A stretch of DNA of 64,000 nt, taken from positions 186,001 to 250,000 of the forward strand of contig JANXCF010000001.1 in NCBI GenBank assembly GCA_025059995.1, read 5' to 3'. The notes beneath the pieces are model-generated. The model saw nothing but the letters and a program-made list of their open reading frames with translations, made no database searches and was not told where the DNA came from. The stretch comes from Leptospiraceae bacterium (GTDB lineage: Bacteria; Spirochaetota; Leptospiria; Leptospirales; Leptonemataceae). A program made the position numbers and the translations under genes. How positions within the stretch are numbered: the stretch's first letter is position 1; the number at the start of each line of letters is the position of its first letter. Positions 4,309-11,274 of this stretch are shown piece by piece.

Positions 4309-5244
4309 ATGAAAAGAAAAATCTTGTTTTTATTGGTGTTGTTGCAAGTATTTAGCGTTTTGTCATGCAAGAAAACGAAGAAGAACCAGTGGTGGTTATT
4401 ACTTTTGTTGAATCAAAATCACGCCGAGGAAACAACTACTGCGATACAAACCATAGAATTTTCTGTTAATCAAGAAAATCCTGTCTCAACTAATCAAAGT
4501 TCAAAGAAATTGAAGGCACTCGTAATGATGTCTATATATCCAGCAATGTGGCAAGAAGATGATCAAGAACCAAAAAAATACTGGATTAAACTGATATCAG
4601 CAGCGAATTCTAATTATTATGTGATTGTATATCCTCCTTACGATCAAGAGAATTCTGACTATACTGATGCTTTAGGAAGACTGGCATTAAAAGGAGCTAT
4701 ACCCATTGCTTATGTAGACACGAACTATGGGAATGTGAATAAAGAAGATGTTAAAACTAAAATTGATGGTTTGTTTTATAATTATTCTGGCAAAGTTCGT
4801 GGTATTTATTTTTCTCGCGTTTCAAGTCTTTATGCGAAGTATAATCCTGACACAGGAGAAATCGAGCATTTATATGAATATCATAAAGAACTTTATGATT
4901 ATGTGAAGTCAAGATATCCCAACTCTTTTGTGGTATTAGGACATGGAAGTATTCCTGATACCTCTTATTTTTCAATTGCAGATATCAATTTGCTTTTCGT
5001 AGAAACTGAGAGTATGCTAGAAGGCTTTTTTACAAAATGGAACTCTCTGCCATGGAAAAGTTTATTTCAGAACGAAGATTTTGCTATAGTAGTTAGAAAT
5101 GTCCAATTGGAGAATATAAACTCTATCATCCAAAGATCAAAAGAAAAAAATATCTATACAATTTACTTATCAAACAAAGGAAATTTTGAGGAATTTCCAG
5201 ATGATGAGTTTTGGAATGCATTAATTATAAACTATGGAAATTAA
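4309..5244 (+). CDS. spherulin-4-like lipoprotein, first tandem copy (degenerate site)
   Basis: Predicted lipoprotein of 311 aa with a signal peptide and lipobox VLSC (Cys20), followed by a Lys-rich patch and a Leu run (WWLLLLLN). From about residue 65 it follows the spherulation-specific family 4 (spherulin-4) pattern, a TIM-barrel, glycosidase-like family: MMSIYPAMW, VIVYPP, IPIAYVDTNYG, GIYFSRVSS, YDYVKSRYP, FSIADINLLF. The family's acidic DE pair in the FxDE.SS segment is replaced by SR here, so any hydrolase activity may be lost. It overlaps the leader of its paralogue and is probably co-transcribed with it. No clear Shine-Dalgarno precedes its ATG. Function unknown beyond the fold. Confidence 0.75.
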   Translation: MKRKILFLLVLLQVFSVLSCKKTKKNQWWLLLLLNQNHAEETTTAIQTIEFSVNQENPVSTNQSSKKLKALVMMSIYPAMWQEDDQEPKKYWIKLISAANSNYYVIVYPPYDQENSDYTDALGRLALKGAIPIAYVDTNYGNVNKEDVKTKIDGLFYNYSGKVRGIYFSRVSSLYAKYNPDTGEIEHLYEYHKELYDYVKSRYPNSFVVLGHGSIPDTSYFSIADINLLFVETESMLEGFFTKWNSLPWKSLFQNEDFAIVVRNVQLENINSIIQRSKEKNIYTIYLSNKGNFEEFPDDEFWNALIINYGN

Positions 5245-5254
5245 GGAGAAGTAT

Positions 5255-6139
5255 ATGAGAGTTCATAAATTAATTGTTATATTAACATTGCATTTATTGT
5301 TGCTTGACTGCACTCAGATTCAAAAATCCACAGGCAATGATCCAAATCCAAAAAAGAAAAAAGAAAAGAGAGAGAAAGAAACATTAGCATTGCTTTTACT
5401 TTTACAACCCTCTCCAGTAATTATAGGAGAAGAAAAAAAAGAATTCAAATCAAGTATGAAAATTCTCATACCAGCGTATTTTTATGACTCCTACTTTTGG
5501 AATCAGTTGTTAAAAAAAGTTAATGAGAACTTTGTTGTAATTCTCAATCCATCCAACGGTCCGGGAACTTCAAGCGATTGGTTATATCCTCAATATCAGT
5601 ATTGGAATCGAAAATTAGTAGAAAAGAATGCGATTGTTATAGGTTATGTTCCTACAGACTATGGAAGACGAAACATAGATAGTGTGAAAAATGATATTCA
5701 ACAATGGAGAATTTTATTTCGAGGAATTCAAGGTTTTTTTATCGATGAAGCATCAAGTAACAAGGACAGTTTAAGCTATTATCAAGAAATCTACAATTAC
5801 GTAAAAGGAATAAATAGCAATTTAAAAGTAGTGTTGAATCATGGAGTATTCCCCGAATCAGAATTCTATGACATAGCAGATATAAACGTTGTATACGAAG
5901 AAGATCCAAATAAGCTTACATCTTTCTCACCAAGAGATAATGAGTTAAAATATTCAAAAGAGCACTTCGCAATGATAATTCATAGCGCTGATAAAAAAGA
6001 TTTAGAAAAAATGCTCTTATATGTTGAGGAGAAACACATAGGTTTTATTTACATCACTGATAAAACGATGCCTAATCCTTTTGATGAGTTACCATCTTTC
6101 TGGGATGACTTCACATCGAAGTTTTTTATTGTAAATTAG
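5255..6139 (+). CDS. spherulin-4-like lipoprotein, second tandem copy
   Basis: Paralogue of the preceding gene, 294 aa. The ATG at 5255 is chosen because AAGGAG precedes it by a few bases; an ATG seven codons earlier lies inside the upstream gene and lacks this. The lipobox is LLDC (Cys19), followed by a strongly basic stretch (KKKKEKREK) and a Leu run. The spherulin-4 pattern is clearer than in the first copy: LIPAYFY, VVILNPSNGPG, VIGYVPTDYG, GFFIDEASS with the acidic pair kept, VVLNHGVFPE, YDIADINVVYE. The family belongs to the glycosidase-like TIM barrels; substrate unknown. A periplasmic or surface enzyme acting on a glycan is the plausible role. Confidence 0.8.
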   Translation: MRVHKLIVILTLHLLLLDCTQIQKSTGNDPNPKKKKEKREKETLALLLLLQPSPVIIGEEKKEFKSSMKILIPAYFYDSYFWNQLLKKVNENFVVILNPSNGPGTSSDWLYPQYQYWNRKLVEKNAIVIGYVPTDYGRRNIDSVKNDIQQWRILFRGIQGFFIDEASSNKDSLSYYQEIYNYVKGINSNLKVVLNHGVFPESEFYDIADINVVYEEDPNKLTSFSPRDNELKYSKEHFAMIIHSADKKDLEKMLLYVEEKHIGFIYITDKTMPNPFDELPSFWDDFTSKFFIVN

Positions 6140-6964: not shown

Positions 6965-8851
6965 TTATTTCGCCATTTGCTGGATTTTTAGATACAACAA
7001 ATCTATATCGGGGGGATCAATTCCTGAGATACGGGATGCTGATTCTAAGTCTTTTGGTTTGAATTTTTTTAATTTTTCTATTGCTTCTTTTTTTAGTCCT
7101 ACAACTTTTTCGTAATCGAAATCATCTGGTATAGCAGTTTTTTTGATCTTTTCTCTTCTTTCAATAAGTTCAAGTTCTTTTTTTACATAACCTTCATATT
7201 TGATTTCTAGCTCAATTACCTTTCTTAGGTCTTCTTTCAATTCCATTACCTCGGGGACAAAAATAGCAAAGTCCTCTATAGCGAACTCAGGTCGTCTTAA
7301 AAATTCACCCGCAGTTTTTCCATAATGTTGTGGTATATCTTCTATGTTCTTTTCTTTGAGTAACTGTTTAAATTCAGTTGTTGGTTTAATACCAACAGAG
7401 AATAGTTTTCTTTTTACATCATACATTTTGTCATATTTATCTTGCATTTTTCGGTATTCATCTTCTGAAATTAATCCTAATCGATAAGCATATTTCATTA
7501 ATCTATAATCAGCATTGTCTTGTCGAAGCAGTAAACGATGTTCAGCTCGACTTGTGAACATTCTATAAGGATCTTCAACTCCTTTGTAAACAAGATCATC
7601 AATCAACACACCAATATATGCTTCTGCTCGTGAAAGAATGAGAGGCGGTTCCTTTCGATAAGAGCAAAGAACATTAATTCCTGCCATGATCCCTTGAGCC
7701 GCTGCTTCTTCATATCCAGTTGTTCCATTGATTTGTCCTGCAAAATAAAGATTCTTTATCTTTTTGGTCTGTAAATCAGGTGTGAGTTCTCTGGGGTCTA
7801 CATAATCATATTCAATAGCATACGCAGGCTTCATGATTTCTGCTTCTTCTAAACCTGGTATCATACGAATTATTTTCCATTGAATTTCTTCTGGTAAGCT
7901 CGTGGAAATACCATTTAGGTAAACTTCGCCTGTATTTACACCTTCTGGTTCTACGAAAATTCGATGTCTTGGTTTGTCATGAAATCGAACAACTTTATCC
8001 TCGATGCTTGGACAATATCTTGGACCTATGCTTTGGATTTGTCCATTATACATAGGTGCACGATGTAAGTTTGCTAATATGATCTTATGAACTTCTTCGT
8101 TAGTATAAGTAATGTAGCAGTCTATTTGTTTTTGAGTAATTTTTTCAGTGCTATAAGAGAAGGGGATGGGATCCTCATCGGGTGGTTGAACTTCCATTTT
8201 AGAAAAATCAATCGTTTTTTTAAGAACTCTGGGTGGGGTTCCTGTTTTGAGCCTTCCAACTTTAAATCCATAATGGATTAAGCTTTCTGTTAATCCCATG
8301 GCTGCGAGTTCTGAAATCCTTCCACCTCTTGCTTGAAACTCACCTATGTGTATCAATCCGCGTAAGAAAGTTCCTGTTGTTAAAATTACAAAGTCTGAAT
8401 ACAGTGTATGACCTCTTCCCGTTATGACGCCTCTTACAACATTATCTTCAATTAAAAGAGATTCTACAGTATCCTGTCTTAAATACAAATTTGGTGTTGC
8501 TTCTAAATGCCACTTTACATGATTTTGATATGCTTTTTTCTCAGCTTGAGCTCTTGGTGCCCAGACAGCAGGTCCTTTTGAACGATTCAGCATTTTAAAG
8601 TGGATACCAGTTTTATCGATAATTTTCCCCATTATTCCACCAAGAGCATCAATCTCTTTCACAATCTGTCCTTTTGCAATTCCACCTATGGCAGGATTAC
8701 ATGACATTTGACCGATTGTGTCAAGATTCATAGTAATAAGTAAAGTCTTCATTCCTCCTTTTGCAGTGATGTGAGCTGCTTCACTGCCAGCGTGTCCACC
8801 ACCTACTACAATCACATCGAAATGATTAGGTATAGTATATTTTTCATTCAT
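6965..8851 (-). CDS. mnmG: tRNA uridine 5-carboxymethylaminomethyl modification enzyme MnmG
   Basis: FAD enzyme that, with MnmE, modifies U34 of several tRNAs. At 628 aa it has the normal family length. The FAD-binding motif GGGHAG is at 17-22; [52 protein letters not shown] and [18 protein letters not shown] are all family signatures. It lies upstream of the hydrolase gene on the same strand and diverges from the ATP-grasp/FMN gene. In many bacteria mnmG sits beside rsmG-parA-parB; here that cluster is about 3 kb away on the other strand, with the fusion gene and a small gene between. Confidence 0.97.
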
Positions 8852-8988
8852 AATTGCAGTTACAAACTGAGCTTGAACTGGATTTGTTATAACAAAAAAG
8901 TATTTTATTGATTTGTGGCAAATAAAAAAATATTTTATATTTTCAATTTATTACTAATGAAAATTTCCATCAAATTAAAAGGTGAGTT

Positions 8989-11274
8989 ATGAAAACTTAT
9001 GAGAAAAAAACTTTGATTATCATTGGAGGGGGAATTCTCCAAGTTCCTTTAATTGAAACTGCAAAAGAAATGGGGTTATTCACAATCGTAATGGATATGG
9101 ATCCTCAAGCACCTGGAATGTTAATAGCAGATCATCCTGTTGTCATGAGCACGCGTGATGTAGAAGGATGTGTTCGAGAAGCTGTTAAACTTTCCAAATT
9201 AAGAAAAATTGATGGTGTGATAACTGCGGGAACAGATGCGACCAAATCAGTCTCAGCAATTGCTAATGCATTGAAATTGCCAGGTATACGATATTCTGTT
9301 GCTGAAGCGGCTACAAATAAAGTATTGATGAGAAAAGCACTAAAACAACACCAAGTTTTAGTCCCCAACTTTGAACCTATATGGAATCTACAAGATTTGT
9401 ATAAAGCAATAGATAAAATAGGGTTTCCTGCAGTTCTGAAACCAACGGAAAATATGGGTGCAAGAGGAGTAATTAAAATTTCGAAAAGAGAGGAAATACC
9501 CGTAGCTTATCATCATAGTAAAGCATTTTCACCTACTGGTGAATTAATTTTAGAAGAATATTTGGATGGTTCAGAACTTTCAATCGATGCATTGATTTGG
9601 AAAGATCAAATCATGATAACAGGGATTGCAGATAGAGTCATCACAGGAGAGCCTTACTTTATAGAAATTGGTCATAATATGCCATCGTCATTACCAAAAT
9701 CCATTATTGATGAAGCGAAAGAAACAATGAAAAGAGCCATAAGAGCAATTGGAATTGATATTGGTGCAGCGAAAGGGGATTTAAAAGTTACAGAAAGAGG
9801 TATATATGTAGGAGAAATTGCAGCAAGACTCTCTGGAGGGTTTATGTCTTCTCATACTTATCCAATATCATCAGGGGTAAAACTCTATAGGCGAGCCATA
9901 CAAATTGCTATGGGAGAAGAACCTGAACCAATAGAAGAGAATTTTGAGTTTGTTTGCATTGAAAGAAGTTTGCTTTCCTCTCAAGGAAAGTTGATTTCAA
10001 TTGATGGCGTAGAAGAAGCAAAAAGGATAGATGGTATATGTGATATTATCATAACTAAAAAGATTGGAACTATTTTACAAAAACCAACAAGTAATATTGA
10101 TAAAATAGGACATATCATAGCAAAAGCAAAAACATTAGAGCAAGCCATAAATATAGCTGAAAAAGCACGATCCTATATACAAATTCAAATAGATGAACTC
10201 GAAGGAATCGACTGGACTCAAGTTGAGAATAATGCTCGTAAACGTTTTCCAAATGATGTTTGTTGGGTTTGTAAAGTTTGTGATGGAACTAATTGTGCAA
10301 GCGGAGTTCCCGGGATGGGTGGCGTAGGAAATCAATTTTCTTTTATTGATAACATTCGTTCTTTACAGGAATATAAAATTTTGCCAAGATATATTCATCG
10401 TGATGTAGAACCAGATTTAAGTTTTGAATTCTTAGGTAGAAAATTTGATGTTCCAATCATGATAGCTCCTATGACGGGAGCTTCAACGAATTTAAAAAAT
10501 GCGATCAGCGAAGAAGAAATCGTAGAAAATTTTTTGAAAATAACAAGAACTGAAAATACAATCACTTGGGTTGGCGATGGTATCACACCTGAGCGCTATA
10601 AAACAATATTTCAAGTGATAGAAAGATTTTTTGGTAATGCTATCGCTATATTAAAACCAAGAGATAATGATGATGAAATTATCAAAAGAATTCGTTATGC
10701 AGAAGAAATTGGATTATTAGCAGTCGGTATAGATATAGATGCTTTTCTTTTCAAAACTTTTTTGTTGAGAAAAGAGAAAGGTAGATCACGTAATGTTGAA
10801 GAATTAAAATACATTCGTAAACAAACAAAACTTCCTTTCATTCTCAAAGGTATTTTAACATTAGATGATGCTTATAAAGCCATTGAAATAGGGGCGGATG
10901 CAATAGTTGTATCAAATCATGGTGGTAGAATTCTAGATAATATACCAGGAGTTGCAAGGATTTTACCAGAAATAGCAAAAGAAGTAAAAGGAAAAATTAA
11001 AATCTTAGCTGATGGAGGAATACGCTCAGGAAGTGATGTGTTTAAGATGTTATGTTTAGGAGCTGATGGAGTATTAGTAGGAAGACCATTTCTCATAGCT
11101 ATTGTTGGTGGAGGTGATATTGCAGGACGGCATTTATTAAGACAATATAAAAATGAACTTTACTATCTTATGAAGCTTTACGGAATTGAAAATATAAAGG
11201 AACTAGACTCAAATTTACTTTATAAAGTAGAAAACTCGCTTAGGACTCAAAAGAGAAAAGACTACATCTTATAG
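8989..11274 (+). CDS. ATP-grasp domain fused to FMN-dependent alpha-hydroxyacid dehydrogenase-like domain
   Basis: 761-aa two-enzyme fusion. Residues 1 to about 400 form a carbamoyl-phosphate-synthase/PurT-like ATP-grasp unit: IIIGGGILQVPLIE at the N-terminal subdomain, TAGTDAT, VLKPTENMGARG, ILEEYLDGSELS and GEIAARLSGGF at the metal/ATP site. Residues about 410-761 form a TIM-barrel FMN oxidoreductase of the lactate oxidase/glycolate oxidase superfamily: IMIAPMTGAS, FILKG, SNHGGR with the catalytic His644 and Arg647 pair, and the FMN phosphate loop ADGGIRSGSDV with GADGVLVGRPF. The junction carries a Cys cluster (425, 428, 431, 436) and PGMGG. It is transcribed alone and overlaps the convergent next gene by 13 bp. 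Reaction and substrate are unknown; an ATP-dependent ligation coupled to a flavin oxidation is inference. Confidence 0.85.
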   Translation: MKTYEKKTLIIIGGGILQVPLIETAKEMGLFTIVMDMDPQAPGMLIADHPVVMSTRDVEGCVREAVKLSKLRKIDGVITAGTDATKSVSAIANALKLPGIRYSVAEAATNKVLMRKALKQHQVLVPNFEPIWNLQDLYKAIDKIGFPAVLKPTENMGARGVIKISKREEIPVAYHHSKAFSPTGELILEEYLDGSELSIDALIWKDQIMITGIADRVITGEPYFIEIGHNMPSSLPKSIIDEAKETMKRAIRAIGIDIGAAKGDLKVTERGIYVGEIAARLSGGFMSSHTYPISSGVKLYRRAIQIAMGEEPEPIEENFEFVCIERSLLSSQGKLISIDGVEEAKRIDGICDIIITKKIGTILQKPTSNIDKIGHIIAKAKTLEQAINIAEKARSYIQIQIDELEGIDWTQVENNARKRFPNDVCWVCKVCDGTNCASGVPGMGGVGNQFSFIDNIRSLQEYKILPRYIHRDVEPDLSFEFLGRKFDVPIMIAPMTGASTNLKNAISEEEIVENFLKITRTENTITWVGDGITPERYKTIFQVIERFFGNAIAILKPRDNDDEIIKRIRYAEEIGLLAVGIDIDAFLFKTFLLRKEKGRSRNVEELKYIRKQTKLPFILKGILTLDDAYKAIEIGADAIVVSNHGGRILDNIPGVARILPEIAKEVKGKIKILADGGIRSGSDVFKMLCLGADGVLVGRPFLIAIVGGGDIAGRHLLRQYKNELYYLMKLYGIENIKELDSNLLYKVENSLRTQKRKDYIL

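Follow-up and report, generated by a model that had tools for sequence, protein, structure and literature searches.

Fusion of an amino-acid-ligase-type ATP-grasp domain and a Cys4 FMN hydroxyacid-oxidase-type domain in spirochaetes

A single gene in the 64,000-nucleotide stretch of Leptospiraceae DNA analysed in this study (the window) encodes a protein in which an ATP-grasp ligase half is followed by an FMN half of the hydroxyacid-oxidase type. We propose, with a probability of roughly one half, that this protein is a bifunctional enzyme combining an amide ligase of the LAL type with an anaerobic FMN dehydrogenase of an L-2-hydroxyacid-like substrate, both acting in one pathway. Support for this proposal comes from the domain content, the intact signatures, the hydroxyacid-oxidase fold and the mapping of catalytic residues, the co-occurrence of both halves, the lactate loci in which relatives of the FMN half are found, the reciprocal decay of either half and the presence of both in a 1.14-Mb genome. 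Both activities can be separated from each other, occur throughout the phylum and tend to be kept jointly, and their fusion suggests that the two reactions probably belong together. The product of this pairing is unreported in the literature searched.

The reading frame described in the initial annotation is intact, with an ATG start and a close at position 11274, and the suggested fusion of a ligase to an oxidoreductase is borne out by Pfam matches to ATP-grasp_4 and LAL_C2 followed by FMN_dh, all of which exceed the curated cut-offs (Table 1). The four cysteines and the SNHGGR motif (residues 642–647) also lie where they had been placed, as is evident from a residue table that covers 41 fusions as well as relatives. 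Its 2.38-Mb genome contains one copy of the gene, all other matches being weak and partial. Homologues from the same genus (69–74% identity) contain the identical fused frame at full length, which argues against a sequencing or assembly artefact, and most of 100 relatives, whose identity ranges from 74% within the genus to about 30%, carry one full-length fused homologue. With homologues fused at full length in the genus and in the phylum, a join by artefact or frameshift is ruled out, and the gene is neither a chance ORF nor a local oddity. The fusion architecture itself is not new, since it was already described in 2010 for LA2659 of Leptospira interrogans, a hypothetical protein with an FMN-dependent part resembling isopentenyl-diphosphate isomerase and an ATP-grasp fold, for which a table lists annotation and expression ratios and no function (PMC2964297). 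Instead of the many described proteins of known reaction and equal architecture that had been considered as a possibility, our literature search gave only this uncharacterised protein and no characterised homologue of the fusion. Elsewhere in the window, two adjacent and similar lipoprotein-like genes with overlapping ends (4309–5244 and 5234–6139, encoding 311 and 301 residues) look like diverged tandem duplicates.

Table 1. Features of the fusion gene in the window
Feature	Position	Strand	Basis or remark
Whole fusion gene, 761 aa	8989..11274	+	Single ATG frame, 761 codons, intact
AGGTGAG, possible ribosome-binding site	8980..8986	+	Inferred from sequence; purine-rich, just 5' of ATG
ATP-grasp ligase half, residues 1-405	8989..10203	+	Pfam ATP-grasp_4 and LAL_C2; PDB 4dim and 3vot matches
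ATP-grasp_4 domain, residues 144-287	9418..9849	+	Pfam; alignment A4
LAL_C2 (L-amino acid ligase C-terminal domain 2), residues 330-401	9976..10191	+	Pfam E 6.3e-19
FMN hydroxyacid-oxidase-type half, residues 401-761	10189..11271	+	AF2 model and Foldseek
Cys4 motif C425-x2-C428-x2-C431-x4-C436, start of FMN half	10261..10296	+	Invariant in alignments A2 and A3
FMN_dh core, residues 600-744; K620, S642-NHGG-R647, D675, R679, R699	10786..11220	+	Pfam E 2.8e-63

That the ligase half is of the amino-acid-ligase type is reflected in the presence of the LAL_C2 domain (68.5 bits against a cut-off of 29.4) and in the identity of its nearest PDB chains, which are 4dim (E 2.4e-30) and the L-amino acid ligase BL00235 (3vot, E 9e-22). 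Residues that are invariant across divergent members (alignment A4) include K151, M156-GARG, E189, E196, H229, K262, D264, E276 and R280-LSGG, and among these K151, E189, E276 and R280 represent the conserved Lys, Glu and Arg of the ATP-grasp nucleotide/Mg site. PurK and PurT were rejected as equivalogs, as both score far under their curated cut-offs.

While AF2 prediction of the whole protein from its single sequence reached a pLDDT of only 37, a model of residues 401–761 obtained with 39 homologues has a pLDDT of 81 and a pTM of 0.85, with confidence dropping to a pLDDT of about 50 over the Cys4 stretch. The best PDB matches of this model in Foldseek are human hydroxyacid oxidase 1 and its relatives (TM 0.76), and Pfam, the model and Foldseek concur in the assignment of a TIM-barrel FMN_dh domain. 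In a profile alignment, K230, H254, R257 and D157 of spinach glycolate oxidase correspond to K620, H644, R647 and D584, and the catalytic His and Arg (SNHGxR), Lys and Asp of FMN_dh are all present. Tyr129 of glycolate oxidase is without counterpart and coincides with a gap of two residues in the profile of the family, close to an invariant K556-P557 of the Cys4-FMN family, and the region of Tyr24 is unaligned, with the Cys4 segment found there instead. The substrate may thus not be a simple hydroxyacid. Among the candidates rejected for this half are type 2 IPP isomerase (TIGR02151, 59.9 bits against a cut-off of 281.3), the equivalog of the pre-mycofactocin synthase MftD (TIGR03966, 126.4 bits against 470.85) and lactate dehydrogenase LldD, which is far under its curated cut-off.

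The Cys4 motif is found in every complete stand-alone FMN homologue of the residue table, with one exception where one of the four Cys is missing, and it is absent from homologues consisting of the ATP-grasp part only. It thus constitutes the native N-terminus of stand-alone Bacillota FMN proteins and not a linker or fusion joint. Whereas the Cys-rich N-terminus known from stand-alone clostridial FMN proteins was indeed found in our Bacillota sample, the idea that the cluster is a bridge created by the fusion finds no support, as the cluster is part of the FMN half and accompanies it where this is encoded by a separate gene.

The stand-alone relatives provide the best hint at the ancestral reaction. 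About 85 relatives of the FMN half in a sample of 299 Bacillota genomes are stand-alone proteins of around 345 residues that are at most 49% identical to it. The FMN half marks a large group of Cys4 proteins from gut and anaerobic Bacillota, which databases label as 'alpha-hydroxy-acid oxidizing', a label that the missing tyrosine places in some doubt, and no characterised member was found in the literature searched. Lactate-utilisation genes (GlcD, CCG/GlcF, LUD and L-lactate permease) are located at most four genes away in 6 of 62 loci of the type nearest to the window compared to 0 of 68 loci of the sister type (Fisher p 0.01), although some loci come from related genomes and are thus not fully independent. 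This context hints at 2-hydroxyacid oxidation as the ancestral reaction. A GntR-FCD regulator is found within the same distance in 8 of the 62 loci and a Cof-type HAD hydrolase near the FMN gene in 15, and no conserved operon was detected for sister-type genes in Clostridia. The HAD hydrolase is also found directly 5' of the FMN gene in a T. pallidum-like genome (L031 4938–6722), and the same order recurs in many Bacillota loci (L138, L140, L145, L152 and L163), often in the uvr/rapZ region. Since an orthologous ligase beside the FMN gene was found in none of the 299 Bacillota genomes, the link between both proteins in one pathway may be an invention of spirochaetes.

Within spirochaetes, the distribution of both halves was investigated in 344 Spirochaetota genomes of at least 90% completeness with a profile of each half (E ≤ 1e-60). 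The ATP-grasp half was detected in 256 and the FMN half in 198 genomes, with both present in 196, often fused as in the window, the FMN half only in two (G594 and G637), the ATP-grasp half only in 60 and neither in 86. The association of the two halves is strong (Fisher p 3e-38, not corrected for kinship), and it is equally illustrated by the presence of the FMN half in just 2 of 88 ligase-lacking genomes, even though many families carry the halves unlinked. The ATP-grasp protein of families f22, f34 and f43 usually spans about 510–580 residues, and their FMN half, if there is one, is encoded by a separate gene elsewhere. Such split-type ATP-grasps (L028 5690–7366, L030 6060–7853 and L035 6372–8060) contain a C-terminal extension of about 130 residues without Pfam match, which occupies the place of the FMN half elsewhere. 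Among the genomes of these families, a 1.14-Mb single-contig genome (G097), which we take to be T. pallidum-like, keeps both halves as separate genes, and the complete genomes G052 and G091 contain the ATP-grasp half and no FMN half above threshold. The 60 genomes with the ATP-grasp half only illustrate that the ligase step does not depend on the FMN half in these organisms. Both halves are absent from family f38, whose genomes of 0.9–1.8 Mb consist of several contigs and which is presumably Borreliaceae-like.

The fusion was found neither in the 299 Bacillota genomes nor among 72,556 plasmids, where no match spans 80% of the query, nor in the viral contigs searched, which also disposes of a viral or plasmid origin. 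Within this scope it is confined to spirochaetes. Its description as lineage-specific holds at the level of the phylum but not below; the pairing, be it fused or split into two genes, is spread through most of Spirochaetota. Similarly, the two genes in relatives that had been envisaged do exist in Treponema-type families, but they reflect a genuine separation of genes and not a frameshift.

The history of the protein is characterised by reciprocal decay. In a tree of the FMN half, the fused sequences are found apart from stand-alone Bacillota proteins, with the exception of the long-branched L037, and in the ATP-grasp tree spirochaete sequences are separated from those of Bacillota. Since both trees are quick, long-branched and without firm root, they are compatible with a single ancient fusion followed by splits, which is not proven. 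In L032 and L166 of family f14, which we take as Brachyspira because it matches records named B. innocens, the ligase half keeps its signature and all four Cys, K556, H644 and R647 are lost; genus g36 of this family contains a second FMN gene of the clostridial type and genus g59 none passing the threshold. Conversely, L037 (family f21) has an intact FMN half and changes at R159, E189, E190, E196, H229, K262, D264, E276 and S282 of its ligase half, and its genome contains a second ATP-grasp gene (L036) with intact signature. A fused homologue in G050 (L191, from 6579), where K556 is changed to D, D582 to T and H644 to R, is possibly a third case of decay of the FMN half. The decay of either half thus points to two separable activities, each of which is, as judged from residue conservation, under constraint in most genomes.

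These properties also bear on alternative assignments. It is conceivable, though in our view rather unlikely, that the FMN half, rather than acting on a free hydroxyacid, oxidises either an amino acid or the amide product of the ligase at the alpha carbon in a similar manner as MftD, an FMN_dh member acting on a peptide-derived substrate, whose model is matched with an E of 1e-36 at a score far below its cut-off. A changed substrate is suggested by the missing Tyr129 and by K556, which is invariant close to its position, and a role in product tailoring would suit the fusion to an amide ligase, but some of the closest stand-alone relatives reside in lactate-utilisation loci with no ligase beside them. 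In favour of this reading, separate ATP-grasp and alpha-hydroxyacid oxidase genes are also found close together on a Streptomyces plasmid (L233 8752–12212), in a cluster that further includes GNAT, 2OG-Fe dioxygenase and methyltransferase genes and that possibly serves natural-product formation with this pair of enzyme types. An accidental joining of two enzymes from unrelated pathways, retained for the usefulness of each, is in our view improbable. Such a reading could draw on the independent decay of each half in some lineages and on the many genomes keeping the ligase alone, but the near absence of the FMN half from ligase-less genomes speaks against it, even if shared ancestry inflates this figure.

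The neighbourhood of the gene could point to a role in the modification of the tRNA wobble uridine in the mnmA/mnmG pathway, since mnmA immediately precedes the gene in the same orientation in all four loci of family f2 and mnmG adjoins divergently in four f1 loci, that of the window (positions 6965–11274) and those of three relatives; these arrangements were noted in the window and in L177–L180. This role is very improbable, as neither gene was found next to it elsewhere in the phylum, mnmG is on the opposite strand from the fusion gene and we know of no LAL-type ATP-grasp in this pathway. Across the spirochaete loci examined, no conserved operon partner names a pathway. Roles in peptidoglycan or flagella are disfavoured, because the presumably Borreliaceae-like family f38 lacks both halves and would still need both structures.

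In the proposed bifunctional enzyme, the ligase half would, by analogy to its family, use ATP-Mg to convert a carboxylate into an acyl phosphate and couple this to an amine. In the FMN half, a hydride would be transferred from an L-2-hydroxyacid-like substrate to FMN via His644, with Lys620, Arg647 and Asp584 expected to act in their known family roles, and the acceptor of the electrons would not be O2; a metal or Fe-S centre bound by the four Cys might relay them. Both activities would constitute two steps of one spirochaete pathway leading to an amide- or peptide-type product.

Collectively, the pair is kept in most spirochaetes including the 1.14-Mb genome and is absent from f38, which suggests a shared function that is still without name. 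We tentatively consider, as a possibility that is far from assured, an undescribed phylum-wide pathway that employs an amide ligase together with a Cys4-FMN dehydrogenase to generate a peptide-like or hydroxyacid-derived compound and that is kept even in a near-minimal pathogen genome. The split and half-decayed versions offer ready-made natural tests.

Among known systems, LA2659, compared by description only, matches the architecture of the whole protein. The ligase half has an ATP-grasp architecture in common with L-amino acid ligases (BL00235, PDB 3vot) and with 4dim, for which only a deposited name is available, but these are stand-alone proteins, whereas the spirochaete form is fused to the FMN half. 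Its closest relatives outside the phylum, with at most 37% identity, are ATP-grasps from capsule clusters of Enterococcus, Parabacteroides and Bacillota, whose genes adjoin sugar transferases and DegT aminotransferases and are without FMN half; no comparable polysaccharide context was found beside the spirochaete fusion genes in the neighbourhoods compared. The signature of these capsule-type proteins is mostly HHEERGG, HYQERGG or TYQERGG in contrast to HKDERSG in the spirochaete ligase, with the exception of one partial match in G121 (GKDERSG). The stand-alone Bacillota 'alpha-hydroxy-acid oxidizing protein' contains all four Cys, like the FMN half of the window, but is not fused. Finally, the glycolate/lactate oxidase family (PF01070; 1gox, HAO1) shares the fold, the FMN site and the equivalents of K230, H254, R257 and D157 with the FMN half, which is distinguished by its Cys4 N-terminus, the missing Tyr129 and the invariant Lys near that site.
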